Origin: Marivivens sp. LCG002
GTDB taxonomy: Bacteria > Pseudomonadota > Alphaproteobacteria > Rhodobacterales > Rhodobacteraceae
Assembly (NCBI RefSeq): GCF_030264275.1
Contig: NZ_CP127165.1
Coordinates: 2,282,001-2,346,000 of the forward strand
Reading direction: 5' to 3'
DNA: 64,000 nucleotides
Shown here: positions 20,820 to 54,470 of the stretch, piece after piece
Layout of the letters: every line of letters begins with the position of its first letter
Position numbering within the stretch: the first letter of the stretch is position 1
Notes under the pieces: generated by a model
Seen by the model: the letters and a program-made list of their open reading frames with translations, nothing else
Told to the model about the DNA's origin: nothing
Database searches by the model: none
Translations under genes and position numbers: made by a program

Positions 20820-20840
20820 TAAAAGTGGTGCCCGGGGGCG
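20820..20840. repeat. attL: displaced tRNA-Phe 3' end
   Basis: 21 bases identical to 54450-54470 (core AAAAGTGGTGCCCGGGGGCG preceded by T). It includes the revcomp of the tRNA CCA end and acceptor/T-arm start, but no other part of a tRNA follows, so it is a remnant attachment site and not a gene. Confidence 0.92.
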
Positions 20841-21186: not shown

Positions 21187-24015
21187 TCAATCGACAGCAA
21201 GTATCCTAAACAAACCGCGAGCCATAATCGGAGTGCTATTGTCAAACATTTTAGCGATATCTTCGGACAGCAGCTTGGCGCGCAAGTCCGCCGCCTGTCG
21301 ACGCGCTTCAGCTCGCCGCCTCTCCGTTGCTAATTGTCCTTCAAGCATCTGCTGTTGTTTGGCATTCTGTGCCGCGTTTTTCTGCTGACAAAGACGCTTC
21401 TCAGTCATGACACTTCCTTTTACAAAGACTTCAGTATCAGCAGCCAAGACCGCTGTTCGGGCTTGAAAGTCCTTAAATACCCCTGCTCTCTTTTCCGCTA
21501 GCCTTTGCTTTTCTGTTCTGTGGAATTTACTGAAATGTTCGGAGAACACCGCAGTGGCTCGCTCGCATTTGGGTAGTCGAGGATATTTGGAGCCTGTTCT
21601 GGGTGTTCCCCTACCTGAGAGCAACTCACTCAGATTATCTTGATCCAGCTCTCTAGTTACTCCGTCATCTTGGATCACAGTCGCATCGATATAGAAAGAT
21701 GCGTCGAAGCGAAGCAGGAGCCATCGGCGATCCGCCTCAAGGCCGGCGAGAAGCCACTCGTCGATGCGTCTTAGGCCGTCGACACGACCGTGTTCCCAAA
21801 GGTCATCTTCCAGCACACGCAGGCGTGGGGCAGGCAGCCCAGACCCGGGTAGGAACGCCGCCACCGAGATCGCCACTGTGCAGCCCGAACAACAATCCCG
21901 GAGCGCTCCTTCCGGCAGTTCTACTCCGATCGGATGTTGCTGCGGAGAAGCAGGGCGCCCTTTAACTCCAGAACAAAGTTGGCCTATCAGATCATCATGC
22001 AGAGCATCTCCCGTGGAAAAGAAACGCGCTCTTTTTCCAACCTGATTTCCCTTTAGCTTCACGTCCTTCTTCGGATCATTGAGGCGCGAACGTTGAGTGC
22101 GTAGAATTTCCCCGTTTCGTTCATCCATGTCGCCCAAGACGAATAGAGGATCCGTTTCGAATCGAGGGTATTTGAGTAAACGGACCTTTTCGCCGTCGGC
22201 ACTCGACAAATCGTGAACACGAAACGCACCACCGTTAGAAAGATGATTCAGGACGGAAGCGGCATCCCTTTCGCCAGCTCGGACGAGATCCAGCAACTTT
22301 TCGGAAGGGACTTGGGGGAGCGCATCCATTGAGAGGAGCCGCCTCGATTGCTCCACCTCTGAGGTCAGCTCCTCCAAAAGCGCCAATTCGTTTTCGTGAT
22401 TGCCCAAGTAACCACTTGCTGCTCTCGCTACGGCATTCCCAAGACGCGAGATTGTCGCATCATCGAGATAAGGTAAAGGAGCATCAAAAACTCCGAGACT
22501 GTCCATGGCTTGCAATACCCGGTGATCTGGCGATTGCTCCACCGCCATTCGCCAGATCGTGATGTCCCCGATCGGTTTCCCGTCCAGAGCCCTTTTGAAC
22601 CCACCTGGACGTAGTCGATCCAATCGACCAATAAGCTGATCGACCCTCGCTATGCTCCAAGGCAGGTTGTAGAAAATCAGATCATTGGCGAAGTGGTGCA
22701 GGTTCAGCCCCGCCTCGACCACCTCTTCCAGAACAAGAAGCTTTGCGCCGCTGTGGATTGCACTAACGACGTCCACCATATCCGTGTTCTGTCCACCTCG
22801 CATCGTCGCTATGAGTTCATCTTCTTCAAGTTCGGGGAACATTCGGTAAAGCCTTGTCTCAAGGCTGTCGACTGTCGGAGTATCCCCGGCAACAATGATA
22901 GCACGCCGGTCTTCATCTCGCTCCCAGATACCGAGTAGCGTATCGCAAAGATCCTCGAAGAGTGTGTCCCCAGAGTCGGCCAGCGAGGCGTCAACACATT
23001 CACGGGTGTCGTTTTCAAGCACCGAGAACGTGTCGTGTCTGAGAGCTCGAAGCATAGTTTCCCTTGCCCAGAAAAGCTGTCTCACGGGTTGCCAAGGGGC
23101 ACCATCGACTTGCAAATTGTGCGATAGGTTTTCTTGAGCTAGGCGCCAGTTCGCCAAATTAACGCGCGCCATTTCCGCGTCGTTTGGCTTGGATATGATG
23201 GTCTTGATCTTGCGCTTGGGAGCCGTCTCCGGCCAGGCGGCCCGAGTCTGGCGCAGGATGCGACGGTTCTTCGCTACAGCCCACATTGCGGCTTCAGCAG
23301 ACATCTTGTTACTGGAGACCATCTCGTAGCAATCGCGACCGAGCACTTTCAGGACGTCGTCCATCTCCTGCCCGGACTGATTTGCAAGGTTGGCGCGATC
23401 CGTTTCAATCATCCCAAAGACAGCACGTGCCCACTCAGGGCTCCCCAATCGCGGGGTCGCTGTCAGTAGAAGAACATGCCGAAACGAGTTACCATTCCGC
23501 CCAGAACGGCAGAGGCCTGAGAGGAACCTCGCCTGTTCAAGGCTCAAAATATGGGGCTCATCGACAATCAACATATCATAGTTAGTAGGGTCCGGAACAA
23601 TCGGTTTCGACCGGACCAAGTCACTCTTGATGATGTGGACGTATCCGCTTCCGTCAGTGGTTTCAAATTCGGTGTCTTCCGTCCACATTTCTGCGGAAGT
23701 ATGTCCGCGCGCACAGAGTTCGACTTGCCACTGGTAGCTGATCCTTCGAGGCGCCACTATGGCAACCCGCAATGACGGATCCTCACGCTTCAGGACGTTC
23801 AACACCATCAGCGCCTGAACGGTTTTCCCCAATCCGACCTCATCTGCAATCAAATGTCTAATATCCGGCCCATCTAGTATCGTCAGGACGTTCTGTATCT
23901 GGTGCTCGTAAGGGTCCGCGGCAACTCCCAAAGCCCCCAGCCTTTCCCACGAGGCGGCATCCCCAATTCTTCGCAGAGCCAATGTGCTTAAGAGAAAACC
24001 AGTGTAATCATCCAT
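21187..24015 (-). CDS. SNF2/RapA-like helicase of the DISARM-related locus (DrmD-like)
   Basis: 942-aa superfamily 2 helicase. Motif I DEVGLGKTV (residues about 57-65), motif II VDEPH (about 150), motif III LLLTATPR, and motifs V/VI LVLEEVVEAGLNLHHF and DQLIGRLDRLR (about 460-475). After the two RecA lobes come some 450 residues with no domain I recognise, ending in a charged coiled-coil-like stretch rich in Lys, Arg and Gln. SNF2 proteins of this style (DEVGLGKT) are called DrmD in class 1 DISARM, where they assist DrmA/DrmB against phage DNA. It is downstream of the 970-aa gene with a 12-base gap, so the two form one minus-strand operon, divergent from the UvrD-DrmA-DrmB operon. Confidence 0.8.
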   Translation of the reverse strand: MDDYTGFLLSTLALRRIGDAASWERLGALGVAADPYEHQIQNVLTILDGPDIRHLIADEVGLGKTVQALMVLNVLKREDPSLRVAIVAPRRISYQWQVELCARGHTSAEMWTEDTEFETTDGSGYVHIIKSDLVRSKPIVPDPTNYDMLIVDEPHILSLEQARFLSGLCRSGRNGNSFRHVLLLTATPRLGSPEWARAVFGMIETDRANLANQSGQEMDDVLKVLGRDCYEMVSSNKMSAEAAMWAVAKNRRILRQTRAAWPETAPKRKIKTIISKPNDAEMARVNLANWRLAQENLSHNLQVDGAPWQPVRQLFWARETMLRALRHDTFSVLENDTRECVDASLADSGDTLFEDLCDTLLGIWERDEDRRAIIVAGDTPTVDSLETRLYRMFPELEEDELIATMRGGQNTDMVDVVSAIHSGAKLLVLEEVVEAGLNLHHFANDLIFYNLPWSIARVDQLIGRLDRLRPGGFKRALDGKPIGDITIWRMAVEQSPDHRVLQAMDSLGVFDAPLPYLDDATISRLGNAVARAASGYLGNHENELALLEELTSEVEQSRRLLSMDALPQVPSEKLLDLVRAGERDAASVLNHLSNGGAFRVHDLSSADGEKVRLLKYPRFETDPLFVLGDMDERNGEILRTQRSRLNDPKKDVKLKGNQVGKRARFFSTGDALHDDLIGQLCSGVKGRPASPQQHPIGVELPEGALRDCCSGCTVAISVAAFLPGSGLPAPRLRVLEDDLWEHGRVDGLRRIDEWLLAGLEADRRWLLLRFDASFYIDATVIQDDGVTRELDQDNLSELLSGRGTPRTGSKYPRLPKCERATAVFSEHFSKFHRTEKQRLAEKRAGVFKDFQARTAVLAADTEVFVKGSVMTEKRLCQQKNAAQNAKQQQMLEGQLATERRRAEARRQAADLRAKLLSEDIAKMFDNSTPIMARGLFRILAVD

Positions 24016-24027
24016 CTCGCATCGCCT

Positions 24028-26940
24028 TTAACGAACTGCGCGGTATCGTAGCGCGGCATACCGCACGGCCCGAGCGGTAAAACGGTCAGAAGCAAAACGC
24101 GCCAACAGGTTCCGCCAATCGGGGTTTTCAATTGTTTGGGACGGTTGAAGGAAAAGCGACAAGAGCGTTCTTAGGGCTTCAGGCGGAATGTGGCGACCGG
24201 TCCGTTGCACGTCTAGATGGCGGCTATTGAGTTCTGAAATAAGGTCATCAAAGCCGACCTCCAGATACGGCAATTGAAGCAAGCCGATAGACCGGGTAAT
24301 TGGCAATACCTTACGTGCGAGTGGGCGCATTAGGTCGGCTTCCCGCGCATCCTTTACTGCCTTTTGCCACTGGCCGTCAAAAACGATACAATCACCATCC
24401 ACAGTTATGCCATTGGCTTCCTCCAACTGAGATGCGAGACGTGTCCAAGCTTCGTTTACCGCATTATCTAACTCCGGCCACTCGTCCCCATCGGGGATTA
24501 GAACCACCGACACCGTCGGGAGCACTTTTCTGAACTCAACAAAGAGAAGTTCTGCAAGCACACTTAACTGATCTTGCGATAGTTCATCAAAGTTGTCGTT
24601 TCCGGCGGCAAGCTTTCGCTCAAGTGAGAAGCGAACCAGACTTCCATGAAAGCCTGAATTAGACAAATCCAACTTTTTTTCGATAGAATTCCAGTCGTTT
24701 CCGCATAAAGCTTCTACAATGCCAGCTTCAATGGACGCACCGACCCGACGTCTCATGCCATCGGCCACAAGACTCGTTGCACTCCCGGACTGCCAAGCGA
24801 CCAGTGCTTCCGATGCTGCGATCAAGCCATTGGAGTCACCTACCGAGCTTCTGTTTTTTCGGATACTTAGGGAGCTTGTCGCACCGATATCCGTTAGACT
24901 GATATGCTCGGAGTTGATGAAGAAACGCCCCATGGTCAGAGCCTCGTCGCCTTCAACGTCTGGCAGCAGGAGTTCTGCTGGCGCATCTTTGATCTCATCT
25001 TTCGAATGGGGCGAAATAGGGTTGCTGCTCAAATCAAAGGAAATGCTTCGGACACTCTGGCCATTATCGGAGGTCCAAGTTCTTTGGCTTTCATCAAAAA
25101 CCCAATCGAGATGTCGGGCCGACATCGAACGAGCCATCGACACCAAGCCCTCGACATTGGCCACAATCGTGGCAGATTTCCCGGAAGAGCTCCACCTTAG
25201 TGCTGCTTCTCGGATCGGGCTCATAGCTTCGATCGAAAATCCGACAACTGATGGAAGGGTTTCAATATAAAACTCGCTGCTTACGCGGTTGCCCTGAGAA
25301 TCCATAAGCGCCACATGCATGGAAGCTCCATCCAGTTTTGAAGGCGACTTCACGTCGAGCGAGCCCAATCCCACTCCAATGTCGTTCAAAGTAATCTGTT
25401 CAGGCGAAACCTCAATCCGAAGCGGCTCGACGCTGTTGCTCGGCCGGAACGCCAGCTTCGAGATTTGTTTGCTATGACCGTCTGAAATATGGAGGCTACA
25501 CGGTTCCTCGTCCGTTTCCAAACGGACCCAGTAACCAATTGGCAATGCCCGTGTGGACAAAATATCTCCGCTGTTAGATTTAACCTCCAAATTCACCGAC
25601 CCGACTAGCGCTTTCACCCAAACGTCATGTCCCTCAACCTGATACATTTCTTCATCCGATTGAACGAAAGTTGCCCCACCAAAAAATTCGACAAGCTCTT
25701 TCTGCGCGATCAGTATCCCATTCGCCAATAACTTTGCGGCACCCTCCGATGAGTTAGCCCTCATACCAAAAAGCGCGGCGCCCCAATTCTCCGGATCTGC
25801 ATTGCCCAAGCGCAATTCGAAAAAACCGGCATCATCCGGGAGCCGCGACCCAGAGAGGATTTGAGTCTGATAGCCATCGCTTTCTACATCGACAAACAGA
25901 AGGTTCTCAGACGGCAAAACAAGACTAGCTATTGTATCGTTGACCTCTATACCGCTTAGATCCGGAGTTGGCAGTTCTCGCGGACGACCAATGAATATCA
26001 GCCCTCCGGCGAGAAACTCTCGAAATGGCATCGAGCGCCCGGCGACACTCAGGATTGCATCCCTCCATTCGCCACCTGTGAGCACGTCGAGATAAGCAAA
26101 TTGCTCTGCATCAAGAGAAGGCCCACGAACAGCAAGGCCGACAGGCTCATCGTCACGCATCAATAACTGGTAAAGTGGCCTCGGCAGCCTGCGTGGTGCG
26201 GTATTCTGAGCCTGTCTCGCAGCACGCGCAGCAAGTGTCAGCCGCCGGACCTCTCGGTTTCCGCGTAGATCTTGTTCAAGCCGCTCCATGAACTTCGGCT
26301 CGACCCGAAGGCCCCTTGCAGTTCCATCAGCGAGCGCTCTGACAACTGAAACAGCGAGACTTTCATCCGTGAGCCATGCTTCGAGGCGCTTTGACGTCAA
26401 GCCGGTCGCAACCTCTCGCAACGTAGCCACGAATGCTGCGTTGAATACGGCAGAACTGCTGGCTCTAAGAGAATCCCTGACCAAACGTGCAAGCGGACTA
26501 TGGATCTCCCGGGACACTAACGCATTTCTGATAGGCCACGCGACGTGGCCGAAGGCTTGGGACCAACGATCATTGAGCGGATTTGCGATTTTGTAATCCC
26601 GGCTTAAGAGCTTGAAGACTGCCGTTATTTCCGGCCGTTGGGCGATACTGATTTCAGCCCCTAGTCCGCGCTCTGCAAACCCCCAGAATTCAGTCCCCGT
26701 GCCTCTATACTGATAGCCGAACTCTGTCAGTGCCACCCCAAGTGATAGCCGGTATGGCCGCCAGGTTTCTGACCTGAATCCTACCGCGCCTCCTCGCGCT
26801 CCGACGGCTCGAATGAGCTCAGAAATCTCAGAGACTTCGAGCCCGTGTTCAATAAGAAAAACCGATTCTTCGCCGCGCTCTAACGAAAGGGCTATAAAAT
26901 GCTCGCTCAATCGTTCTTCAAATAAAGAAAGTCTTTCCAT
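24028..26940 (-). CDS. Large protein of unknown function in the DISARM-related locus
   Basis: 970 aa from the ATG at 26940 (MERLSLFEERLSEHF). A TTG at 27087 would extend it to 1019 aa but would collide with the divergent gene. I recognise no domain, catalytic motif or membrane segment. The N-terminal ~300 residues look mainly helical, residues about 300-650 mainly beta-rich, and the C-terminal ~150 helical again. It is soluble-looking and too long for a simple adaptor. It shares an operon with the SNF2 helicase and a promoter region with the UvrD-like gene. By position it is a dedicated component of the locus, perhaps the phage sensor or an effector. Function unknown. Confidence 0.7.
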   Translation of the reverse strand: MERLSLFEERLSEHFIALSLERGEESVFLIEHGLEVSEISELIRAVGARGGAVGFRSETWRPYRLSLGVALTEFGYQYRGTGTEFWGFAERGLGAEISIAQRPEITAVFKLLSRDYKIANPLNDRWSQAFGHVAWPIRNALVSREIHSPLARLVRDSLRASSSAVFNAAFVATLREVATGLTSKRLEAWLTDESLAVSVVRALADGTARGLRVEPKFMERLEQDLRGNREVRRLTLAARAARQAQNTAPRRLPRPLYQLLMRDDEPVGLAVRGPSLDAEQFAYLDVLTGGEWRDAILSVAGRSMPFREFLAGGLIFIGRPRELPTPDLSGIEVNDTIASLVLPSENLLFVDVESDGYQTQILSGSRLPDDAGFFELRLGNADPENWGAALFGMRANSSEGAAKLLANGILIAQKELVEFFGGATFVQSDEEMYQVEGHDVWVKALVGSVNLEVKSNSGDILSTRALPIGYWVRLETDEEPCSLHISDGHSKQISKLAFRPSNSVEPLRIEVSPEQITLNDIGVGLGSLDVKSPSKLDGASMHVALMDSQGNRVSSEFYIETLPSVVGFSIEAMSPIREAALRWSSSGKSATIVANVEGLVSMARSMSARHLDWVFDESQRTWTSDNGQSVRSISFDLSSNPISPHSKDEIKDAPAELLLPDVEGDEALTMGRFFINSEHISLTDIGATSSLSIRKNRSSVGDSNGLIAASEALVAWQSGSATSLVADGMRRRVGASIEAGIVEALCGNDWNSIEKKLDLSNSGFHGSLVRFSLERKLAAGNDNFDELSQDQLSVLAELLFVEFRKVLPTVSVVLIPDGDEWPELDNAVNEAWTRLASQLEEANGITVDGDCIVFDGQWQKAVKDAREADLMRPLARKVLPITRSIGLLQLPYLEVGFDDLISELNSRHLDVQRTGRHIPPEALRTLLSLFLQPSQTIENPDWRNLLARFASDRFTARAVRYAALRYRAVR

Positions 26941-27087
26941 AAACAGCCAACTCGGCCCTATGCCGCCCCCAGTTGCGCGCAGTCTTACAAGAACCAGATG
27001 AAATTCAATCAAAAAAAATCCTTGAAGGGCAACTGCATTGTTGAAACTGTGGTGCCCAAACTGGGGCAGAAAATCTTTGAAACTCAA

Positions 27088-29385
27088 ATGACACTACGAC
27101 AGATTCTTGCCGATTTTCTGCGACACGAGTTATTTTCACTTGGATCTCTATCGCGATCTAAGTCCATCTCGGTGCTTACGGTCAAAGCGCAGACTCTTGG
27201 AGTTGAGAAAGCAATCTCCCACGCCTTGGCAATCGAGGTCCTTGATGACTTGGTTCTTACAGGCGACATTGGTGCATGGACGTCTTTTGGAGAACCGATG
27301 GTCCTCTTGCTTGATCGTCGGATGATGCCTGTTGATGGACAAGATACAATTATTCTCGGAGGACCGCCGATGGATGGAGACCCGTTTGGGATTCTCCGCC
27401 GAATTGCAACGGATACTGTATTCGAGCAGGAAGCGTTCGAATTCAGGCCAGAACTCTCGGAAGCAGAAACACAATCAATCGCAGCGCTGGTTGATTTAGG
27501 CGAATGGTCGCCTGCATTAGCACTATCACCGGGTCTCCGAAGGGTTTTGCTGCATCTGGGCTGCGAGCCGGACGGGAAACTCTCGCGACATGCGGACGAT
27601 TTCCTGAAAGAATGGTTGCAGACGGTCACTGCTCTGTCCCAAGGTGGCGGCTTGGACGTCAGCCAACAGGTTGTAGTTTCGCAAGAAAAGCATGCCCGGT
27701 TGGTCGTCACTGCGGGACCGGGTTGTGGCAAGACGCACACTGCAAGTGCGCGTGTGATCGAATTGGTGAAATCCGGTGTTAGCCCTGCAAGTATTCACTT
27801 GATTACCTTCACGCGTGTAGCTGCACAGGAAATCTCTGAAAGAGTCAAATCTGCCCTTGCCGATCAGGTGTATGGCGCAGGAATACAATGCTTTACGCTT
27901 GATTCTTTCGCATGGCATCTGATCGGTTCTATCGAAGACCAAGACACTTCGGGCGGGTTTGACAAGTCGATACTCCGTGCATCAGCCCTGCTTTCAGCTC
28001 GAGAACAAAGATTGCTCGACTGGGTTGGACGGATCGGTCACTTGGTTATTGACGAAGCTCAGGACGTTGTAGGGATCCGACAGAAACTCTCCATCCAGTT
28101 GATTGCCGCCTTGCCTGCATCAGTCGGCGTCACAGTGTTCGGAGATTGGGCACAGGCGATCTACGGAGCTTGGTCTGATCAAAACGCGAATGTCTCGCAA
28201 CCCGCAAGCAATTTACACGCGCATATATTGGCATCTGAGGGCTGGAAGAAACTTGAGCTCAGCTTCAATCACCGCGCCGGTTCGGCAAAACTAAAGGCGT
28301 TCGCCCTCGACGCGCGAGCATGCCTCGGCAACATCGAATTGCAGGCCAAAGAACGATACCTTTTGGTGCGCGAATTGCTTGAGAACGCGGCGTCGACGCA
28401 AGGAGCAGATTTGCTGGATCGGCGGATTCCTTGGAGTTTTGACAACCTGATACTAACCCGAAGCCGAATGGCGGCAGAAGCGGCCTCTGCTAGGTTGTCC
28501 CTACGCGGCCGACCACACCGCCTGAAGCTGTCCGGTCACACTCACGTAGTCGAACCACTGATCGGCGCTATCTGTGCCGGCAAGACAGTCGGCGAACCGC
28601 TAACGCAGGGCGATGTCGAGCAACGAATTGAGGCGCTTTCTCCGGCACCCTTTGGCTGGACCCCAGATGAAGCCTTTGTTCTTCTGAAGAGCGTGGCCGG
28701 GACGGGCAAAGCTGCCCCACGACTAAGTGACATTATCGTCAAGATCGAACAGAGTCCCGTGCATATCACTCATGACTATATCGGACAATCAGGCCCTTTG
28801 ATCGGCTCGGTTCATGGCGCAAAAGGCAAAGAAGCGGAAGACGTGTTCTTTCTGATGCCGCCGATCCCGAATTACGAAGACGTCGACTGGGACGAAGAAG
28901 CGCGAGTCCTCTTTGTTGCTGGAAGCCGTGCATCGAAACGACTTCATCTCGGAAGAACCCGTCAGGTTTTCGGCCGCGTGGAACAAGACGGAAGCAGGTG
29001 GATTTCCGGGCAGGATGGCGGACTGGCCCTTTCTGGGAGTGATGGTCTTACCCCACTGCCCGGTCGCGGCCCAGTAGACGCTATCTGGGGAGCAACTTTC
29101 GATCAGCCTCTCTGCACTTTCAGAAGAGAGAGCGTCACCTCTGAGTGGCAATTAGTGCTACAGAATGGCCATGCTGTCGCAACAGCAATTGATCCTCTCG
29201 CGATGAATCTCAACTATCTGGCAAATGAAGCGCTCAGTCTTCCCTTTGGATCCCTGAGAGTTGCGGGTGCGACTACCGTTGCGACAACGAGACGGGACGG
29301 GAAACCAATCGGGGTCGCGCTCCTGCCTGTCTTGCAGGGCACTGTCAGGAGCGGTTCCCAATCCAGTGAAAAGAGGATTACATGA
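27088..29385 (+). CDS. UvrD/Rep-like superfamily 1 helicase of the DISARM-related locus
   Basis: About 765 aa from the ATG at 27088; an ATG at 26998 would give 795 aa, and neither has a clear Shine-Dalgarno. Motif I AGPGCGKTHTA (about residue 210), motif Ia ITFTRVAAQEI, motif II LVIDEAQDV (about 320), motif III FGDWAQAIYGAW, motif V GSVHGAKGKEAEDV (about 573) and motif VI EEARVLFVAGSRASKRLHL. All the core residues are present, so an ATP-driven 3'-5' translocase is expected. The first ~190 residues have no recognised domain. Its stop overlaps the DrmA-like start by four bases (ATGA). A UvrD-type helicase is not part of the classic DISARM set. Confidence 0.8.
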   Translation: MTLRQILADFLRHELFSLGSLSRSKSISVLTVKAQTLGVEKAISHALAIEVLDDLVLTGDIGAWTSFGEPMVLLLDRRMMPVDGQDTIILGGPPMDGDPFGILRRIATDTVFEQEAFEFRPELSEAETQSIAALVDLGEWSPALALSPGLRRVLLHLGCEPDGKLSRHADDFLKEWLQTVTALSQGGGLDVSQQVVVSQEKHARLVVTAGPGCGKTHTASARVIELVKSGVSPASIHLITFTRVAAQEISERVKSALADQVYGAGIQCFTLDSFAWHLIGSIEDQDTSGGFDKSILRASALLSAREQRLLDWVGRIGHLVIDEAQDVVGIRQKLSIQLIAALPASVGVTVFGDWAQAIYGAWSDQNANVSQPASNLHAHILASEGWKKLELSFNHRAGSAKLKAFALDARACLGNIELQAKERYLLVRELLENAASTQGADLLDRRIPWSFDNLILTRSRMAAEAASARLSLRGRPHRLKLSGHTHVVEPLIGAICAGKTVGEPLTQGDVEQRIEALSPAPFGWTPDEAFVLLKSVAGTGKAAPRLSDIIVKIEQSPVHITHDYIGQSGPLIGSVHGAKGKEAEDVFFLMPPIPNYEDVDWDEEARVLFVAGSRASKRLHLGRTRQVFGRVEQDGSRWISGQDGGLALSGSDGLTPLPGRGPVDAIWGATFDQPLCTFRRESVTSEWQLVLQNGHAVATAIDPLAMNLNYLANEALSLPFGSLRVAGATTVATTRRDGKPIGVALLPVLQGTVRSGSQSSEKRIT

Positions 29386-32300
29386 ACATTGGCGACAATC
29401 ATATGGACGCACGCCAGCGTGTTGTGGATCGACTGCATGAAGACTTGGTGGGCCCCTATAGCGAAGATGAAATTCTCCGCGATAGCCCGGCCGAAGTTTA
29501 TTTCTCAGGGATACTATATGCTCAGAAGACCCCTGTTTCGAGCATCGAACCCGAAGATGCCACGATAGTAAGCGATGACGATGACGAAACATCAGACAAG
29601 ACCCCACCAAACACGTTTCGACCAAGTTCGATGGGCGTTTCGTTTGCGATTGCGCCAAAGGACGGCAATGAGGCACTGATCGCGATTTCAGTTTCGGTCG
29701 GCACCTACGAAGCGCACGCCACGGAAAACTCGAGCAAGGGAAACCCCTTCAATTGGCATCGGCACCAGAAAAATAAGACCTTCTCAGTCGAATTGAGCGA
29801 TCGAACTCCAAGCGAAATCACGCCTATTTCTGAGATACCCGGGCTGGGATATTGGGTGCGATGCAGGAGGCATAAGAAGCTCTTCCTCGTAACGGTCATG
29901 CTGGTGAACCAACAGACGAATTCCAAGTCGGCTGACGCAGTCGCACGTGATACCGCAAACTTTTATCAAGCCCGTTTCAGTTTAGAGGCAGACCCCGATT
30001 TTGGTCTGATTGTGCCCAAACCGTCAGTGCATCAGAAAAGTGCTGATCCGGAAATTCAGTCAAATTCCATGCTCTACAGGGATGCGCCGGAGTATGCGGT
30101 CGGTCACACCTGCTCAGTGAGCTGGAGACAAGATCAGGATAGCGCTGTTACTCTGTCTTCGGAATGGTTGCCCACGGTGGAGGTTCCAATCGCGAGCGCA
30201 AGCGGCGATGAGGAGTTTTTCAGCAATCTCGCCGGCCAAGGGGAAAGCTTTGTCCTTGGGGCGGAATGGCTGTCCGAAGCTGACGGCTCTGAGGTCGTGG
30301 TCGGCCTCGCTGAATTTTGCCAGTGTTACTCTGACTGGATTGCGGCACAGGACTTGAGGATCGCCTCCCTAACTCCTGAACACCATGAAACCGCCCGAAG
30401 GCACTTAGACGCCTGCCGGCAAGCATTGAACCGAATGTTGGAGGGTGCGAAACTACTCGCCAACGATCCCGAAGCCCTGTTGGCCTTCAGGCTCGCAAAC
30501 CGAGCTCTGTGGCTCCAAAACGAATGGAAACGTCGAGGCGCCCCAGAAATCCGGCCCCTTGTGTGGCGACCATTTCAGTTGGCGTTTGGACTTCTGTGCC
30601 TCAGTTCTACCAGTAACCCAACGGACACGGACCGCGCAGTTATGGACTTGCTCTGGTTTCCCACCGGCGGCGGCAAGACAGAAGCATACCTTCTCCTAGC
30701 TGCATATGTCGTGTTCTTACGTAGGCTGAAAGCTCGTGGTGCGGCAGCGGGCGCCGGAGTAACTATTTTTATGCGCTATACGCTCAGGCTGCTGACCGCC
30801 CAGCAATTTCAACGCGCTGCTTCCATGATCCTCGCATGCGACATGCTGCGCCGCGGGGATGAAAAATGTCCGGGCATTCAACTTCCGGATCATTTCCAAT
30901 CAGATGCTTCTATTTCTATCGGTCTTTGGGTAGGAAAGGACACAAGCCCAAATACAGTGAAAAAGGTGGGCGAGGACGGTTCACCTGCGCAAGTAGCGGA
31001 TTGTCCCATTTGTGGCGAAAAACTTGATTGGTCTGTGGACAATAACGGTGAAAGAGTTCTCGCAACCTGCTCCGATGAGACATGTTCGGCCAACGGAGAT
31101 GCTGGTCACCTGCCCTTTTGGACGGTTGATGAAGACGTCTACCGCGAACTTCCTTCACTGCTGATCGGCACGGCCGACAAGTTCGTCCAAATTGTCAGCA
31201 AGCCAGAAACCGGCAGGCTTTTTGGGTTGGCGGACGCCCAACGCAACCCACCGGATCTGATTATTCAGGACGAACTGCATCTGATCTCTGGGCCATTGGG
31301 AACTATGGCAGGGCTTTTTGAAACGGCCATCGACGCGCTTTGCTCGCACAAGGGACATAGGCCCAAGATCATCGGATCTACAGCAACAATCAGGCGAGCT
31401 GACGATCAGATCAGATCTCTCTTCAACCGGGAATCGTCTCAGTTTCCTCCACCCGGCATCGATCAGTCGAATTCCGGTTTCGCATACACAAAACAGGACA
31501 GCCCGGGCCGACTGTATGTGGGGATAACGTCCGCTGGTCGGACGGCCAGTTACATCTATCAGGCAATCTCTGCCTCTCTCTTGCAAGCGGCCTCCGATCC
31601 GGGCTTCGTCGGCGCCGACGCGGACAAATACTGGACGCTTGTCGGCTATTTCAACTCGCTGCGGGAACTCGGCAGTGCCTCAATCATCATGCAGGACGAC
31701 GTTACGCACAGCATTCAGCTGATTTCTGAGCGTCGAGCTGAAAAAGAGCGACACTTACAGCCACCCACCGAACTCACCAGCCGGGTCAAGTCGGACAAAA
31801 TCAAAGAAGAGCTGAAGAATCTTGAACTGGACCGAAACAGTGGCGCCGCAGCTGACATTGTATTGGCCTCGAACATGATCTCCGTCGGGATGGATATCAG
31901 GCGCCTCGGCCTCATGCTCGTCAATGGACAACCCAAGACCATTGCAGAATACATCCAAGCGACGAGCCGCGTTGGACGCTCCAACGTGCCAGGGCTCGTC
32001 ATAACGCTCTACAACGCCAACAAGATGCGAGACCGTAGCCGATATGAGAGCTTCCCTACCTGGCATGGTGCGCTTTATCGCGATGTAGAAGCCACCGGGG
32101 TGACACCATTCGCTCCAAGAGCGCGGGATAAGGCGCTACATGCGCCTTTTGTGGCAATGGTCAGGCACCTTGTCCCGGAAATGCTTTATTCACCAAACGA
32201 TGCCCAAAAGTATCGGGCACGACTCGAAGATTTGATCGATAGGATCTGTGAGCGTGTCTCAACTATTGACGAACCCGAAGCCGAGGCAACGCGGAAAGAA

Positions 32301-32510
32301 CTTATTGACTTCCTTGAGAATTGGATCCGCCGGGGAAATCTGAAAGGCTATTGGGACGACTGGTCGGACGCAGCTCTGTTGATCTCTGCTGAAAAAGCGG
32401 CAGAGAGCCAAGCCTCGAATTTCTCGAAAGGCCTCGCCAGAGCGACACCGAACACACTGCGATCAGTAGAGGCGTCCACCAAATTTGTGATTACAGAGCA
32501 GAGCACATGA
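29382..32510 (+). CDS. drmA: DrmA-like DEAD-box helicase (DISARM core)
   Basis: 1042 aa. Walker A FPTGGGKTEAYLLLAAYVVF (about residue 426) and motif II QDELHLISGPLGTMAGLFE (about 628) are the very characteristic DrmA forms. A CPICGEKLDW...CSDETC zinc-binding pair lies between them (about 541-570), and SNMISVGMDIRRLG with QATSRVGRSN (about 830-866) supplies motifs IV-VI. DrmA with DrmB forms the DISARM core, which loads on and blocks incoming DNA with particular 5' ends. It overlaps the UvrD-like gene by four bases and precedes DrmB by 10 bases. Walker and DE residues are intact. Confidence 0.88.
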   Translation: MNIGDNHMDARQRVVDRLHEDLVGPYSEDEILRDSPAEVYFSGILYAQKTPVSSIEPEDATIVSDDDDETSDKTPPNTFRPSSMGVSFAIAPKDGNEALIAISVSVGTYEAHATENSSKGNPFNWHRHQKNKTFSVELSDRTPSEITPISEIPGLGYWVRCRRHKKLFLVTVMLVNQQTNSKSADAVARDTANFYQARFSLEADPDFGLIVPKPSVHQKSADPEIQSNSMLYRDAPEYAVGHTCSVSWRQDQDSAVTLSSEWLPTVEVPIASASGDEEFFSNLAGQGESFVLGAEWLSEADGSEVVVGLAEFCQCYSDWIAAQDLRIASLTPEHHETARRHLDACRQALNRMLEGAKLLANDPEALLAFRLANRALWLQNEWKRRGAPEIRPLVWRPFQLAFGLLCLSSTSNPTDTDRAVMDLLWFPTGGGKTEAYLLLAAYVVFLRRLKARGAAAGAGVTIFMRYTLRLLTAQQFQRAASMILACDMLRRGDEKCPGIQLPDHFQSDASISIGLWVGKDTSPNTVKKVGEDGSPAQVADCPICGEKLDWSVDNNGERVLATCSDETCSANGDAGHLPFWTVDEDVYRELPSLLIGTADKFVQIVSKPETGRLFGLADAQRNPPDLIIQDELHLISGPLGTMAGLFETAIDALCSHKGHRPKIIGSTATIRRADDQIRSLFNRESSQFPPPGIDQSNSGFAYTKQDSPGRLYVGITSAGRTASYIYQAISASLLQAASDPGFVGADADKYWTLVGYFNSLRELGSASIIMQDDVTHSIQLISERRAEKERHLQPPTELTSRVKSDKIKEELKNLELDRNSGAAADIVLASNMISVGMDIRRLGLMLVNGQPKTIAEYIQATSRVGRSNVPGLVITLYNANKMRDRSRYESFPTWHGALYRDVEATGVTPFAPRARDKALHAPFVAMVRHLVPEMLYSPNDAQKYRARLEDLIDRICERVSTIDEPEAEATRKELIDFLENWIRRGNLKGYWDDWSDAALLISAEKAAESQASNFSKGLARATPNTLRSVEASTKFVITEQST

Positions 32511-32520
32511 GGGCCATGGC

Positions 32521-35379
32521 ATGAAAGACGTTGGATCGATCCGCAGAAGTCAGATCATCGGACCCTTTGGGCCCGGCTCAATTGTCGACTTCAGGCTTTC
32601 TTCGTCTCGAGGAGCACTTCTTTCCGGCGTGATGCAGGGTCTTGAAGCTTGGGACGGCTATAGCGGCCCGAACAAGGGGCTGAATGACCCGAATTTAATC
32701 CGTGAGCCGCGTCTGGAAGCCAAACTCGCGATCAAAGGCTTTCGCCCCCCATTGATCGGACAATATACGTTCCAGAATGAAAAGCGTGAACGGGTCCTTC
32801 CGGTGCGTCGCTTCCCCGACTGGCAATCCTGCCCGGATTGTCACGTGATACAGAAGTCGGGAATGTGGGCTCCGTCACGCGGAGGAGACAGTCTTCACTG
32901 CGGCCATTGCGTGGGCCGACCCGCGGTTGTGCCCGTGCGTTTTGTCGCGATCTGTGAGCATGGTCATCTGAATGATTTCCCGTGGGATAAATGGATCAAC
33001 CACAAACCCGACTGCAAACAACCGCTCTTGAAGCTGATCACAGTTGGCGCCGGGATCGCTGGATTACGGCTCAAATGCACCGGCTGCTCTGAAACAAGGT
33101 CGATCGCCGAAGCTTTCTCTCCAAACGGCATACCCGGACATGCTTGTAGAGGGGGTCGTCCATGGCTCGGTGACTACGAGACCGGTTGCGAAGCACCTGC
33201 GAGGATAACGCAACGCGGCGCGAGTAACACCTATTTCCCGGTAGTCGAAAGCGCGATCACGTTGCCGGATTGGCGAGCTCATTTCTACGACCGCTTAGGC
33301 GCCAACCGCTCGGTATTGGAGGACTTTGATGATGATCGCGATATGCTACTTCGCATTGTTCAAAAGCGGGTCGCTCCTGAATGGGATGGAAGCGAAAGCG
33401 CGGAGGAAATCTGTGATTTGTATTTCGAAGCAAAGGACAAAGACGCCGAAGATGCTGTAGCCGATCTTAAGTTAGCCGAGTTTCGGATGCTGAGCACTGA
33501 TACACGTGGCTCTGAACTTGGGAAAAAGGATCTTCTGAATGCGGCTCAGGAAGTTCCAGAAACCCTACGTGGACTCGTGTCCTTTATCTCAAGTGTCGAA
33601 CGCCTCCGAGAGGTCCGCGCCCTAACTGGCTTCACTCGGCTCAAAGCTTCAGTAGCAGGAAAACCAGCGCCATTGCCCCTTTCGAAAAGTCCGAAAGATT
33701 GGCTGCCCGGAATAGAAGTGAACGGTGAGGGCATCTTCGTCGCGCTCGATAAATCAGCAGTGCAAGCTTGGGAAACCTCTCCGGCCGTGGAAACGCATAT
33801 ACGTCGCCTTCAATCGCAGTGGATTGATGCGAAAAATTCGGCAGGTGAGAATCCGACAAGCCTGCCGGAAGGACTAAGCGCGCGCTACATACTTATACAC
33901 ACTCTCGCACATGCACTCATTTCTGAACTTTCCTTGGAAAGCGGTTACTCGTCGACATCACTCCGGGAACGGCTTTACGTCGACTCCAACATGGCGGGAC
34001 TTCTGATCTACACATCCACGTCAGATGCCGACGGCACGATGGGCGGGCTATCGAGACAAGCTGCTCCATCACGATTTGAGCATAGTTTCTTGCGAGCCGT
34101 CAGCACTCAGGAACTTTGCTCCGCAGACCCGCTTTGTAGCGGTGGTCTCGCGAGCGACGGAGCGTCCGGCAATCACGCCGCCTGCCACAGCTGCGTTTTT
34201 CTGCCCGAGACCAGCTGTGAAAGCTTCAACTCTTTCCTTGACCGAACTCTGCTCTGCGCAAGCGACTTCGCCTTTTTTCAAGACTTGTCCGAAGGCAAGC
34301 CTCGGAAGAGAACAGCATCTCTCTCAACGAACGACTCAATTGCATCAATTTCAACCCCATCCCCCCACATGGAAGCTGTGAAGGTGGCGGAAGTTCCAGC
34401 TTTCCAGGACGAGTCGGGAATTATTGAATTCGGCAACACGCTCCGCTCTGATGATCTGATAAAATTGGACTTCAGTAGAATTGGATTTGCGACGCCCTCC
34501 GGAATGCTGCTGCTTTCGAGGCACATCCGACGTGCGGTGGATCGAGGCATTGTTGTGGGCCATGTCGGCGTAGAACCAAACGGCTATGCGGCGAACGTTG
34601 GTTTCTACGAGCACTGTGGGATCGAAGTCCCCCGGCGAGAAGCTTCCGGCGGAGAGAACTATCTGCCGCTGCAAGCCGTTGACCTAGACAAATGGCGTAG
34701 TGATGCCGAAAAAAGCTCTTTGAGCTTAGGTGAGTTGGCTGATCAACGAGTTGGCAGAATGGCCTTTCTGATCGCGCGTGCCACGAGGGGCAAACTTTTC
34801 GACCTTATGAAGTATTGCCTCCGTGAAATCGTCAGGAATGCATTGGAACACGGCAACGGGGATACGATGTGGATTAGCGGTCAATACTGGCCCGCGCGAG
34901 ACACGGTCGAGCTCTCGATTTTTGACAATGGCATCGGCATTCTTAGGTCTTTGCAACGAAACGAGAAATTTTCAAATATTGGAGACGACCTGAAGGCCTT
35001 ACGTCTCGCAGTTCTGCCGAGCACATCCGGCGTCCATAAACAGGAAAGCTCAAATAGAACGGGCCCAGAAACGACAGATGACCGATGGAAGAACTCTGGG
35101 TTCGGTCTCTATGTCACCAGTCAGCTTGCAAGAAGAAAAGGTTATTTCGTGATCGGCTCTGGCTCGAAGTTCCTTCGGATCGGGTCCCACAGATACGAGA
35201 AAGGGGATTTCTCCCTGCCAGGCACTTACGTATCCATGAATTTCTCCGTAGCGGATCTCCAAAGAGCGGCGGCCGAGGTCGGCGCGATCGTCAAGAAAGG
35301 CGAAAGCATTGCTCAACGCTATGTATCCAAGGATGCCGACGTCTTCGCATCAGCCGCATCCAAAGAGATCTTTCAATAA
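32521..35379 (+). CDS. drmB: DrmB-like DUF1998 protein fused to STAS-like and GHKL ATPase domains
   Basis: 952 aa. The N-terminus VGSIRRSQIIGPFGPGSIVD is the usual DrmB opening. Zinc-type motifs follow (CPDC...CGHC, CEHGH, CTGC). The DUF1998 core lies around residues 455-590 (YILIHTLAHALISELS, then CxxC-type cysteines in ADPLCSG...CHSCVFLPETSCE). Classic DrmB ends about here. This one continues with a STAS-like segment (about 635-725, IKLDFSRIGFATPSGMLLLS) and a GHKL ATPase (about 760-930): N-box REIVRNALEHG, G1 IFDNGIGI, G2 NSGFGLYVTS. The added half suggests ATP-dependent gating or signalling built into the complex; that is inference. Last gene of the plus-strand operon. Confidence 0.85.
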   Translation: MKDVGSIRRSQIIGPFGPGSIVDFRLSSSRGALLSGVMQGLEAWDGYSGPNKGLNDPNLIREPRLEAKLAIKGFRPPLIGQYTFQNEKRERVLPVRRFPDWQSCPDCHVIQKSGMWAPSRGGDSLHCGHCVGRPAVVPVRFVAICEHGHLNDFPWDKWINHKPDCKQPLLKLITVGAGIAGLRLKCTGCSETRSIAEAFSPNGIPGHACRGGRPWLGDYETGCEAPARITQRGASNTYFPVVESAITLPDWRAHFYDRLGANRSVLEDFDDDRDMLLRIVQKRVAPEWDGSESAEEICDLYFEAKDKDAEDAVADLKLAEFRMLSTDTRGSELGKKDLLNAAQEVPETLRGLVSFISSVERLREVRALTGFTRLKASVAGKPAPLPLSKSPKDWLPGIEVNGEGIFVALDKSAVQAWETSPAVETHIRRLQSQWIDAKNSAGENPTSLPEGLSARYILIHTLAHALISELSLESGYSSTSLRERLYVDSNMAGLLIYTSTSDADGTMGGLSRQAAPSRFEHSFLRAVSTQELCSADPLCSGGLASDGASGNHAACHSCVFLPETSCESFNSFLDRTLLCASDFAFFQDLSEGKPRKRTASLSTNDSIASISTPSPHMEAVKVAEVPAFQDESGIIEFGNTLRSDDLIKLDFSRIGFATPSGMLLLSRHIRRAVDRGIVVGHVGVEPNGYAANVGFYEHCGIEVPRREASGGENYLPLQAVDLDKWRSDAEKSSLSLGELADQRVGRMAFLIARATRGKLFDLMKYCLREIVRNALEHGNGDTMWISGQYWPARDTVELSIFDNGIGILRSLQRNEKFSNIGDDLKALRLAVLPSTSGVHKQESSNRTGPETTDDRWKNSGFGLYVTSQLARRKGYFVIGSGSKFLRIGSHRYEKGDFSLPGTYVSMNFSVADLQRAAAEVGAIVKKGESIAQRYVSKDADVFASAASKEIFQ

Positions 35380-37142: not shown

Positions 37143-37400
37143 TCGCCGCCAAGTGATCTCTACCCCGCGAACATCTTACACATATAAGAGATAAAGGTGC
37201 TACTGATCCAAGTGGCAATATGTGCGGTCCGCACGAGTTCCGAGCCCCAAGAGAACTATGACAGTCAAATGGAATGTCATCGCCCACATAGATTTAACCA
37301 ATTGCGCGACATCACTGAATATATGCCATCCTTGCCTACCGCTCAGATATCCTATAAATGACCCGGAGAATAACAACTTTCCGGAAATTGGAGCCCGCCT

Positions 37401-38663
37401 ATGGAAATCAAGCGCATTGACTTTGCTTCTGCAATCCTAGCGAAGCGAAGCAACATGGGCCTGAACCAAAGGGAATTTGCAGAGCTTCTTGGACTTGGAG
37501 ATGGAGGTGAGCGAACAATCGGTGGATGGGAGCGAGGTGAACATATTCCAACAGCCGCTAAGATGGCTAAAATCAATGCGCTACCAGATCGCATTCCCTT
37601 TACCAGCCCCTATTCAAGCCAGCCTGACAAAGCTCTTTTTCGCTTCATCGACCTATTCGCCGGGATCGGTGGGATAAGATTGCCATTCCAGGAGCGCGGC
37701 GGGCACTGTGTGTTTACCTCTGAGTGGGACAAGTTCGCGCAAAAATCATACGCAGCAAATTATGGCGAGGTGCCCCATGGGGACATCACTAAGATAGCTG
37801 CTTCGGACATACCCGAGCATGACCTACTTCTTGCAGGCTTCCCTTGTCAGGCCTTCTCACAAGCAGGTCTTCGTCAAGGCTTCTGTGATACTCGTGGAAC
37901 CATGTTTTTTGAGATCCAACGCATACTTGCCTATCACAGGCCCAAAGCCTTTTTACTCGAAAATGTTAAGCAGCTCCGCGGTCATGATAAAGGGCGAACG
38001 TTAGCCACCATATTATCCATATTGCGTGGCGAAGACGTTCCCGCCATTCCCGATGATGTTCCGATGAGTGAAGACGCCCGAAAGAGCCTTGGAACCCGCC
38101 TAAATTACCGCGTGGGATTTAGTGTGCTAGCCGCCCGCAACTTTGGTGTGCCGCAAAACAGAGAGCGCGTCTATATCATCGGTTTTGATCGAGAGCAGGT
38201 GAGTGAAGCTAATGCAAGAGACCTGCCGAGAGAAATCTTCGAGCAACTTGAAAAGCGCAAGAGTGATACCAAGCTGGGAGACATCCTTGAGACGAACGCG
38301 TCTGTCGATCCCAAATACACGATATCTGATCGCCTACTTGCAGGTCACAAGCGGCGCCTTCTTCAGCATAAAGCCAAGGGGAATGGCTTCGGTTATAGCC
38401 TCTTTAACCGTGACAGTGCCTACTGCAACACGATCAGCGCACGCTACTATAAAGACGGAAGCGAGATCTTAATTGATCAGTCAGACATAGGCCGAAACCC
38501 TCGTAAGCTCACCCCTCGCGAATGCGCACGCATTCAAGGCTTTCCCGAAGAGTTCAATGTCGATGCTGTCTCCGACGTGCAGAACTATCGCCAGTTCGGG
38601 AACTCAGTATCCGTTCCAGTGATCCGCGCTATTGCCGAGGAGATGACAGGTTACCTAAGGTGA
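37401..38663 (+). CDS. C5-cytosine DNA methyltransferase with N-terminal HTH
   Basis: 420 aa. Residues about 10-60 form an XRE-like HTH (GLNQREFAELLGLGDGGERT). The methylase follows: motif I FIDLFAGIGGIRLPFQ, motif IV LAGFPCQAFSQAG with the catalytic Cys, motif VI FLLENVKQL, motif VIII QNRERVYIIGF, motif IX LTPRECARIQGFPEEF and motif X RQFGNSVSVPV. All ten-motif landmarks needed for activity are present. The HTH fusion suggests autoregulation, a common trait of type II C5 methylases. Start supported by GGAG nine bases upstream. It precedes the McrB/McrC-like pair and is most likely the modification enzyme for them. Confidence 0.9.
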   Translation: MEIKRIDFASAILAKRSNMGLNQREFAELLGLGDGGERTIGGWERGEHIPTAAKMAKINALPDRIPFTSPYSSQPDKALFRFIDLFAGIGGIRLPFQERGGHCVFTSEWDKFAQKSYAANYGEVPHGDITKIAASDIPEHDLLLAGFPCQAFSQAGLRQGFCDTRGTMFFEIQRILAYHRPKAFLLENVKQLRGHDKGRTLATILSILRGEDVPAIPDDVPMSEDARKSLGTRLNYRVGFSVLAARNFGVPQNRERVYIIGFDREQVSEANARDLPREIFEQLEKRKSDTKLGDILETNASVDPKYTISDRLLAGHKRRLLQHKAKGNGFGYSLFNRDSAYCNTISARYYKDGSEILIDQSDIGRNPRKLTPRECARIQGFPEEFNVDAVSDVQNYRQFGNSVSVPVIRAIAEEMTGYLR

Positions 38664-38749: not shown

Positions 38750-40513
38750 TTGGCCATATCTCTAGATTCGCTCACGCCAGCTGATGCTATGCATTTTCTG
38801 TGCTTTGCCTTGGCTCAATCGGAAGATCCCCACCGTGCACTTGGTTATCAGACACAGAACGAGGCTTTCGAAGATATAGCAAATCGATTTGGTTCTAAGG
38901 CCAACACAGTAAAGAACAACCGGGACTCTTTTGACCGATTTACAGATAGCGCAAGAGTCGGATGGAAAAGTGAATTAAGACCTGCACTATCGAAGATCTA
39001 TGAAGCGGTTAAGGAACTTTCTCGCGATGAAATCTTCGATCTTAGCCGCACCATTTTGCAAATGTCTTGGTATACTCCTATGAGCTCTGCACCTAAAGAC
39101 GATCAAGCTACCACACCGCTGAAAGACATCTTTGGGCTATCGAATACAAACGATAATTTGATTAAAGTTCGAGAGCCCTACCTTGGCGCAGCTATTACCT
39201 TTAGCAATACACACTCACGAAATAATGACGCATGGTTCGTATTGACTGCTGACCAGATCAAACAAAGTCTTATCGATATCCTGCCTCAACGAGCAAAATT
39301 CCCCGAGCATTATAATGAAGGAATTTACCGAGCGTTATTTGCAGAGCACTTAACAGATGATGTGGCAAGATACATGGCAAGCGTGCAAACTATGCCATTT
39401 TTTGAAGTCCTATCTAAAGTAATCCACTATTCTGGGCGATCAGACGATCGAATTTCTAAGAAAATAGACCTAAGCGAAGACTCCATCAGGCAAGCAATTC
39501 TTGAACTTGAGCAGCTTGCCGTCAAGGGAACCCCCGCAGCCAACAGTATGAGTCGCGAGGGTTCAAGAAATGAACATGCAACTTCAGTAATAGGGACTAA
39601 TCGGATCTATTACGGCGCACCCGGCACTGGTAAATCGTATGCAGTCAATGCATTGGTTGGCGAGGCGAATGTCATACGGACTGTGTTCCACCCCGACACT
39701 CAAAATAGTGACTTCTTTGGTTGCCTAAAGCCTGCGATGGATGGTGACAAAGTAACCTATCACTTTGCCCCAGGCCCGCTTAGTCGCGCCCTGAGTGCAG
39801 CCATGATTGACACAGCGCATCAACATTATCTTGTAATTGAAGAATTGAACCGCGCTCCCGCTGCGGCAGTCTTCGGGGAGTTGTTCCAACTACTTGATCG
39901 CGACGATAGTGGAGCTGGCGAATACGAAGTCGACTTTCCAAATGGCGAGAGTAGAGACTGGTTCAAATCTAAAGGCTATGGATCGGAAAAGCTGGTGATG
40001 CCGGCCAACCTTTCAATAATAGCGACAATGAACAGCGCCGATCAAGGCGTCTACCCGCTCGACACTGCATTCAGAAGACGCTGGGAACAGCAGTATCTAC
40101 CTTTGTATGAAGGCAACGGCCCACAGGGAGATGTGTCAACATATGTTGCCCCAGGTCAGGAAATTCGTTTGAGTTGGAAGACCTTTGTGCAAGAACTCAA
40201 TAACTGGCTTATAGAGCTGGATCTAGCCGAAGACCGACTGCTTGGGCTTTGGTTTGCGAAGGAGCGAGAACTAGGGAAGCACGTTCCAGCAAAGATCTTG
40301 CTTTACCTATGGGATGACTTGCTACGCCACGAAGGACGCGAGCGTCTCTTTGCTTCCCACATCAAGACCTATGGCGGATTGGATCAAGCCATCAAAGCAG
40401 GTAAGCCGATATTCATTGAGGGATTTCTCAATGCGCTGAAGGCAAGACTTCCATCATCAGCTGCCAATTTTACACCGGCACCAGAGGAGACAACTGATGC
40501 AAAGGGGCAATGA
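38750..40513 (+). CDS. McrB-like AAA+ NTPase of a restriction system
   Basis: 587 aa starting at TTG 38750, with AAGGAG about seven bases upstream. The N-terminal ~280 residues are likely the DNA-recognition part. The AAA+ domain has Walker A YYGAPGTGKSYAV (about 288), Walker B YLVIEELNRAPAAAVFGEL and the McrB-type IIATMNSADQGVYPLDTAFRRRW (sensor 1 and arginine finger). It powers DNA translocation for the McrC-like nuclease. With the upstream C5 methylase it resembles LlaJI/BsuMI-type restriction systems rather than stand-alone methyl-dependent McrBC. Confidence 0.85.
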   Translation: MAISLDSLTPADAMHFLCFALAQSEDPHRALGYQTQNEAFEDIANRFGSKANTVKNNRDSFDRFTDSARVGWKSELRPALSKIYEAVKELSRDEIFDLSRTILQMSWYTPMSSAPKDDQATTPLKDIFGLSNTNDNLIKVREPYLGAAITFSNTHSRNNDAWFVLTADQIKQSLIDILPQRAKFPEHYNEGIYRALFAEHLTDDVARYMASVQTMPFFEVLSKVIHYSGRSDDRISKKIDLSEDSIRQAILELEQLAVKGTPAANSMSREGSRNEHATSVIGTNRIYYGAPGTGKSYAVNALVGEANVIRTVFHPDTQNSDFFGCLKPAMDGDKVTYHFAPGPLSRALSAAMIDTAHQHYLVIEELNRAPAAAVFGELFQLLDRDDSGAGEYEVDFPNGESRDWFKSKGYGSEKLVMPANLSIIATMNSADQGVYPLDTAFRRRWEQQYLPLYEGNGPQGDVSTYVAPGQEIRLSWKTFVQELNNWLIELDLAEDRLLGLWFAKERELGKHVPAKILLYLWDDLLRHEGRERLFASHIKTYGGLDQAIKAGKPIFIEGFLNALKARLPSSAANFTPAPEETTDAKGQ

Positions 40514-46804: not shown

Positions 46805-47029
46805 AATAATTTCCTTAACAAAGTTGCACGCCACAAAATCTGCTGGCGTTAACTATTTAGCAGGAAAGTATTAAATATGATTTTAGCCTACGCTTGGCCG
46901 GATAAGTAGTCGATCTTGAATAACGCGGATCACATCAAGAGGGCCGCGTTTTGCGGCTGATCGGGCGCGGCTTTGGCCGCCATGTATTGACCCAGCTTAA
47001 TCTGCTCAGGTTAAGCCGCTAATTTGAAT

Positions 47030-48146: not shown

Positions 48147-48195
48147 CGCTACCTTCTCCTTTGTAGCATGAGCAGATTTTCAGTGGGTCATTACA

Positions 48196-54449: not shown

Positions 54450-54470
54450 TAAAAGTGGTGCCCGGGGGCG
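54450..54470. repeat. attR: element/tRNA-Phe junction
   Basis: 21 bases identical to 20820-20840, covering the last 15 bases of the tRNA-Phe gene and 6 bases beyond its CCA end. The bases outside the repeat differ on both sides. Confidence 0.92.

Follow-up and report, generated by a model that had tools for sequence, protein, structure and literature searches.

A predicted new DISARM-lineage variant with an X-SNF2 gene pair on a tRNA-Phe island of Marivivens sp. LCG002

Described systems and layout of the locus

DrmE defines class 2 of the DISARM systems and is not among the PADLOC matches listed for the five proteins described below (these being the best 25 of 32 families for the SNF2 helicase and of 43 for the UvrD-like helicase). 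In DISARM operons a C5 methyltransferase is often linked, DrmC is dispensable and often missing, and the ATPase of Serratia DrmAB is reduced by 5-methylcytosine, as stated in the sections available of PMC9142583. According to the excerpted text of the preprint by Bell et al. (PMC12458937), class 1 DrmA carries an EVE-like domain at its N-terminus, and a DISARM-like cassette near McrBC led its authors to a survey of YprA proteins and hence to ARMADA. The CoCoNuT study (PMC11090510) reports, in the part available, that a DISARM-like system and predicted methyltransferases are frequent associates of McrBC branches. Druantia type III comprises DruH, a YprA-helicase partner of ~1000 aa in which Ig-like domains are enclosed by helical ends; its authors call the case for a sensor role of DruH indirect (PMC13192584).

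The window, the whole 64,000-nucleotide stretch of Marivivens sp. LCG002 DNA analysed here, contains five ORFs in the order DrmB-DrmA-UvrD / X-SNF2, forming two divergent operons. Their features are as follows.

21187..24015, minus strand: SNF2/RapA-like helicase, 942 aa (Pfam SNF2-rel_dom and Helicase_C), second gene of the X-SNF2 operon
24028-27087, minus strand: full open frame of protein X, of an unnamed family; the likelier product is 24028..26940, ~970 aa
26998..29385, plus strand: UvrD-like SF1 helicase (Pfam UvrD-helicase, E=2.1e-22) with an N-terminal extension of ~200 aa
29382..32510, plus strand: DrmA, 1042 aa (PADLOC DrmA, E=6e-206)
32521-35379, plus strand: DrmB ORF, 952 aa (PADLOC DrmB, E=5.6e-77)
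32521..34290, plus strand: DrmB part, ~residues 1-590, with a DUF1998/MZB domain and conserved cysteines (NCBIfam DrmB_fam)
34321..35379, plus strand: STAS-like and HATPase_c tail of DrmB (Pfam HATPase_c, PF02518)

All five frames are open and helicase motifs were seen by eye. The PADLOC matches agree with the DrmA-like and DrmB-like identities proposed in the initial annotation, and the translational coupling of UvrD to drmA that it described corresponds to a gene overlap of 4 nt. X and SNF2 are separated by 12 nt in the window; an overlap of precisely 4 nt is seen in 15 of 39 relatives, and in the others the distance is longer or otherwise different and varies with the choice of start. No named system with this exact gene set appeared among the listed PADLOC and NCBIfam matches, and no description of it was found in the literature, searched by titles and abstract openings.

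The locus resembles DISARM in its separate DrmA and DrmB and in an SNF2 helicase, as in class 1; a linked C5 methyltransferase similar to DrmMII may be a further point of likeness. It differs from DISARM in having neither DrmC (none found) nor DrmMI, in an SNF2 protein that is not called DrmD, in the additional UvrD and X, and in a DrmA that is shorter than Serratia DrmA at its N-terminal end and belongs to a clade of its own. The three kinds of helicase, SNF2/RapA-like, YprA-like and GajB/UvrD-like, are those of ARMADA type II, but the YprA chain of ARMADA fuses DUF1998 and a C-terminal nuclease, whereas DrmA and DrmB are separate genes in the window, and its SNF2 adjoins a PglX-like methylase, whereas the window SNF2 adjoins X, which has no methylase match (PMC12458937, same excerpt). 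As in CoCoNuT, a methyltransferase and a McrB-like gene lie near the locus, although the available part of PMC11090510 contains no gene-by-gene description of DISARM-like cassettes that can be matched to X or UvrD. Likeness to Druantia type I is seen at some loci, in which X, with or without SNF2, replaces DruB/DruC beside DruE, DruA and a DruD-like gene where in view, but DruA, DruD and DruE are absent from the window by the profiles built here. X is comparable to DruH as described above, but no sequence kinship was found.

The locus lies within a putative island bounded by direct repeats.

20820..20840, plus strand: left 21-bp direct repeat, putative att site, a perfect repeat of 54450-54470
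53318..54367, plus strand: tyrosine integrase beside tRNA-Phe (Pfam Phage_integrase, E=2.6e-18)
54450..54470, plus strand: right 21-bp direct repeat, overlapping the 3' end of tRNA-Phe

The five genes start ~350 bp inside the left repeat, at one end of the island (20820-54470), and within the window the G+C content is 0.519 inside the island and 0.582 outside. An empty site was sought in five relatives: the left flank was not found beside tRNA-Phe in any of the loci examined, and in two of them the match is confined to 18-21 bp of the repeat itself. The island is thus called from three features: the repeat, the integrase and the reduced G+C.

The DrmA-DrmB pair, the accompanying helicases and protein X

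DrmA aligns with the Serratia DrmA structure (7s9v_A, E=9e-137) from residue 220 of the latter onwards, and so the window protein is without the N-terminal part of Serratia DrmA; its score against NCBIfam DrmA, 885, is below the cut-off of 950. DrmB scores 463 bits against NCBIfam DrmB_fam (cut-off 240) and matches 7s9v_B (E=4e-71), with the cysteines aligned. These alignments establish clear homology of DrmA and DrmB to the Serratia DISARM pair of known structure. In a tree of 55 DrmA sequences, built by a quick method with SH-aLRT support and carrying a program warning of long branches, one group (SH-aLRT 95) comprises 33 of the 34 X-linked rows and sits inside a group of 38 (SH-aLRT 100) together with L051 and four X-less UvrD-DrmA-DrmB-NERD loci, while nine class 1 DISARM DrmA rows constitute a separate group (SH-aLRT 99). 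L051 is an X locus, yet its DrmA falls outside the X clade.

The clear homology to the solved pair, together with a C5 methyltransferase that is often linked, as in DISARM operons (PMC9142583, sections available), is what would be expected of an ordinary DISARM in which the activity resides in DrmAB, while X, SNF2 and UvrD only assist, without a distinct role. We regard this explanation as unlikely, given that DrmA belongs to a separate clade and misses the NCBIfam cut-off, that no DrmC occurs in the stretches seen, and that SNF2 accompanies X in 39/39 loci of the genome scan.

The initial annotation missed the C-terminal tail of DrmB, which matches Pfam HATPase_c with 28.0 bits (cut-off 26.4). 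What we take to be the N, G1 and G2 boxes are present in this tail, and the STAS-like stretch between it and the DrmB part is our own reading of the sequence. The fusion was found in no other locus examined, and none of the 68 plasmid records matching DrmB or the tail covers 80% of DrmB in one place. Plasmids (L012, L013 and L014) and same-family genomes (L066-L070) carry standalone STAS-like/HATPase relatives.

The SNF2 protein had been likened to DrmD. The likeness holds for the helicase core, the only part across which the PADLOC DpdE and DrmD models match, but identity as DrmD is not supported: NCBIfam DrmD gives 79 bits, its cut-off being 610, and the DpdE model does better (131 bits, cut-off 500). 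RapA is the nearest solved sequence. For the UvrD-like protein the nearest PADLOC families are GajB helicases, and its AlphaFold2 model (pLDDT 80.8, the first 29 residues below 50) retrieves UvrD/PcrA/Rep-type helicases as the best Foldseek matches of the whole model. The true start may be near 27088. In ARMADA type II the UvrD/GajB helicase carries a RelE-like domain at its N-terminus; in the window protein residues 1-215 have no Pfam match, and the whole-model Foldseek search gave helicases. Neither Pfam nor that search returned a match for an N-terminal nuclease.

The start of protein X is more likely at 26940, giving 970 aa, since relatives align from there. As the initial annotation held, X belongs to no recognised family, with no match in Pfam, PADLOC or NCBIfam; likewise, seven relatives compared with PADLOC at E up to 10 yielded none. 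Its AlphaFold2 model (pLDDT 78.7, pTM 0.59) displays helices to ~246, an alpha/beta stretch to ~412, a beta-sandwich (Ig-like) region to ~660 and helices from 706, these limits being our own reading of the model, in which no enzyme fold was seen. The best Foldseek matches are tandem beta-sandwich proteins and are weak (best E=3.3e-4, TM ~0.1), and X has no recognised sensing domain. Several identities were considered and rejected. A methylase or nuclease is represented neither among family matches nor among the 50 fold matches listed, and comparison with PDB sequences gave one non-significant match, Abf2 (E=0.077). Comparison by hhalign revealed no similarity to E. coli DruB, DruC or a DruB-DruC fusion. 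Kinship with DruH would have supported a sensor role, but the sequence comparison found none (hhalign E=0.037, with one E. coli sequence, 0.053 and 0.11, at probabilities of ~1% and in differing places); a few N-terminal residues that by eye stand in like order in X and DruH are not counted as evidence.

Conservation of the five genes and recurrence of X-SNF2

A scan of one genome per species, queried with an alignment of X, recovered 39 loci, in which genes were called with family profiles built in this analysis and over limited flanks. The loci of the window's kind number 33 (L021-L053), and 29 of them show all five genes, the other four (L026, L034, L041 and L048) lying at a contig end or being incomplete; these counts are not independent, owing to near-copies such as L023/G505 and L030/G816. 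Among the five-gene loci, X is in two pieces in L046 and two UvrD genes are present in L051. X and SNF2 lie in this order on one strand in 39/39 loci, and in the 33 DISARM-type loci UvrD points away from X, L048 retaining a UvrD fragment only. Contigs L099 and L100 of a viral collection carry the same set, as do plasmid loci L005 and L006, in the latter of which SNF2 runs off the end of the record. The five genes co-occur and are conserved as a unit, which upholds the initial reading of a DISARM relative with a distinct gene set. X itself is rare, being present in 3/385 alphaproteobacterial genomes and 3/398 genomes phylum-wide, counts that each include the window's own genome and one of which used a single-sequence query. 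A DrmC profile built here matches only L108 and L114; within the limited flanks available, none was found in the window or in L021-L053.

Related arrangements were observed elsewhere. A sister arrangement, in which UvrD-DrmA-DrmB-NERD accompany a C5 methyltransferase but X is not in view, is found in L010, L011, L101 and L112; UvrD is only partly in view in L112, and an SNF2-like gene begins beyond NERD in L101. In L102, L104 and L105, DrmA-DrmB follow a NERD helicase and an unmatched protein of 906-1109 aa, with a C5 methyltransferase nearby; the large protein has no PADLOC match in the two loci tested (L102, L104). A DarT-family gene adjoins the NERD helicase in L006, an Azospirillum plasmid.

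The remaining 6/39 X loci (L054-L059), like plasmid loci L007 and L008, place X-SNF2 next to a NERD helicase, a DruE-type helicase, which in L007 matches PADLOC DruE1 with E=0, and a gene with weak likeness to DruD (E=1.5e-5 in L007). A DruA relative is in view in 5/8 of these Druantia-type loci. Four further loci (L018/L144, L020/L145, L072 and L143) display DruA-X-(DruD)-DruE, with no SNF2 in the stretch fetched; DruD is named by PADLOC only in L020 (E=1.6e-126), that of L072 matches the L020 protein, and the others are weak or unlabelled. X occupies the place of E. coli DruB and DruC. Profiles of DISARM-linked and Druantia-linked X align with an hhalign probability of 99.9 (E=1.7e-34, 741 columns), by which the two kinds of X are related. 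The occurrence of X-SNF2 in both DISARM-like and Druantia-like loci suggests that bacteria mix and match system parts. The two divergent operons, initially taken as one DISARM relative, do constitute a distinct set, but they are better read as two modules because X-SNF2 is also found with Druantia type I-like genes.

It could be argued further that X-SNF2 and UvrD-DrmAB(-NERD) are two independent systems that share a divergent promoter region, as UvrD-DrmA-DrmB-NERD occurs with no X in view in the four loci of the sister arrangement and X-SNF2 accompanies Druantia genes in others. This appears improbable in view of the DrmA or DruE relative that lies beside X-SNF2 in 37/39 loci, the exceptions (L041, L048) still holding UvrD, or NERD and a DrmB piece, and of the head-to-head order kept in the 33 DISARM-type loci. 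A tentative proposal, to which we give somewhat less than even weight, is that X-SNF2 is a portable infection-sensing and loading module serving two YprA-family effectors, the split DrmA-DrmB and the single-chain DruE, with a shared trigger and a different effector and self-marking.

Methyltransferase, nuclease and proposed mode of action

The genes next beyond drmB form a LlaJI-type restriction set.

37401..38663, plus strand: HTH-fused cytosine-5 DNA methyltransferase (Pfam DNA_methylase, E=8e-96)
38750..40513, plus strand: McrB-like AAA ATPase of the LlaJI-type restriction system (Pfam AAA_5, PADLOC REase_II)
40497..41744, plus strand: LlaJI-family restriction endonuclease (Pfam RE_LlaJI, E=1.2e-26)

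The methyltransferase heads this set, and no other C5 methyltransferase was found in the genome. It matches PADLOC DrmMII (E=1e-99), the generic MTase_II model being better (1e-114), and the McrB-like gene scores 30.5 bits against NCBIfam McrB, far under the cut-off of 637. The initial annotation stated that no methylase is adjacent, which is correct for strict adjacency, but the methyltransferase begins 2.0 kb after drmB, with an insertion sequence between them, and such a gene is a recurrent partner in the related loci. Copies of the insertion sequence at 35929-37152 and 46973-48195 are inverted, 87% identical, carry an rve integrase core and flank the LlaJI-type genes; an 866-aa protein (44234-46834, minus strand) has a weak DNA polymerase B match (PF03175, E=4e-4, below the curated cut-off).

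C5 methyltransferases were identified in 35/38 genomes behind the X loci (the L024 genome being outside the count). They lie at most ~6 kb from one end of the system in 21/33 DISARM-type loci, are not close in 6/33 (L023, L034, L035, L039, L044 and L053, for which contig numbers were not all matched to records) and could not be judged in 6/33 (L024, L026, L027, L030, L051 and L052); linkage in L028 is by genome position only. A Vsr gene is often beside the linked methyltransferase. None of the six Druantia-type loci has a linked C5 methyltransferase, three of those genomes being without any, and the comparison of 21/27 with 0/6 gives a Fisher p=8e-4 that ignores kinship among loci. In five of the closest relatives (L116, L117, L118, L119 and L133), drmB is faced by a conserved convergent operon encoding a C5 methyltransferase, Vsr, 542-aa and ~280-aa proteins, a ZorD/DpdE-like helicase and an EcoRII-N domain protein.

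No nuclease domain was found by Pfam in any of the five proteins. A NERD-domain helicase is next to drmB in 19/33 relatives, corresponding to 19/22 loci outside the window's closest clade, and its gene is in pieces, fused or cut in L038, L048 and L051. Residues E22, D60 and E74-x-K76 of NERD are conserved in at least 93% of 30 sequences, a signature that we take to be the usual PD-(D/E)XK pattern; on this alignment, the nuclease motif appears intact in the relatives. NERD is absent from all ten closest-clade loci with the drmB side in view (L021-L025, L027-L029, L043 and L046; L026 is cut), and none was found in the window's genome. The window copy could accordingly be viewed as a decayed or regulatory remnant that no longer defends after NERD loss and HATPase-DrmB fusion, the latter found nowhere else, with an insertion sequence just downstream. 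We consider this very improbable: the five frames are open with helicase motifs present by eye, and the absence of NERD is common to the clade, since 9/10 close relatives' genomes also have none, the tenth giving a weak partial match.

The explanation that we favour, and consider rather probable, is that the locus is a new variant of the DISARM lineage, carried on a tRNA-Phe island and predicted to act against phages, with X-SNF2 in sensing and loading and the methyltransferase in self-marking. The five-gene set is probably an anti-virus system. As in Serratia DISARM, the DrmA-DrmB helicase would act on unmodified DNA that is entering the cell or replicating, while host DNA would be spared through 5-methylcytosine placed on it by the linked methyltransferase; such a C5 mark could serve both the LlaJI-type and the DrmAB systems. 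X and the SNF2 ATPase would form a sensing and loading module that switches on DrmAB here and the DruE helicase in Druantia-like loci, and UvrD may help unwinding. The cut is probably supplied by the NERD-domain helicase in relatives having it. In the window lineage, replication might instead be blocked by unwinding and translocation, or cutting might be left to the neighbouring restriction enzyme or host nucleases, and the HATPase tail of DrmB would have been added locally, for regulation. Against the self-marking role, the LlaJI-type pair would need the methyltransferase anyway, and the insertion sequence parts it from drmB. The relatives with no close methyltransferase (6/33), the lack of a sensing domain in X, the position of the L051 DrmA and the long branches of the tree also count against the favoured explanation.

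These observations describe a DISARM lineage with a NERD helicase, bearing the presumed PD-(D/E)XK pattern, in the place of DrmC, and a window lineage in which neither NERD nor DrmC was found; both are relevant to how DNA is cut in DISARM. The X-SNF2 pair, kept with either the DrmAB or the DruE helicase, would offer a direct handle on infection sensing in DISARM and Druantia.
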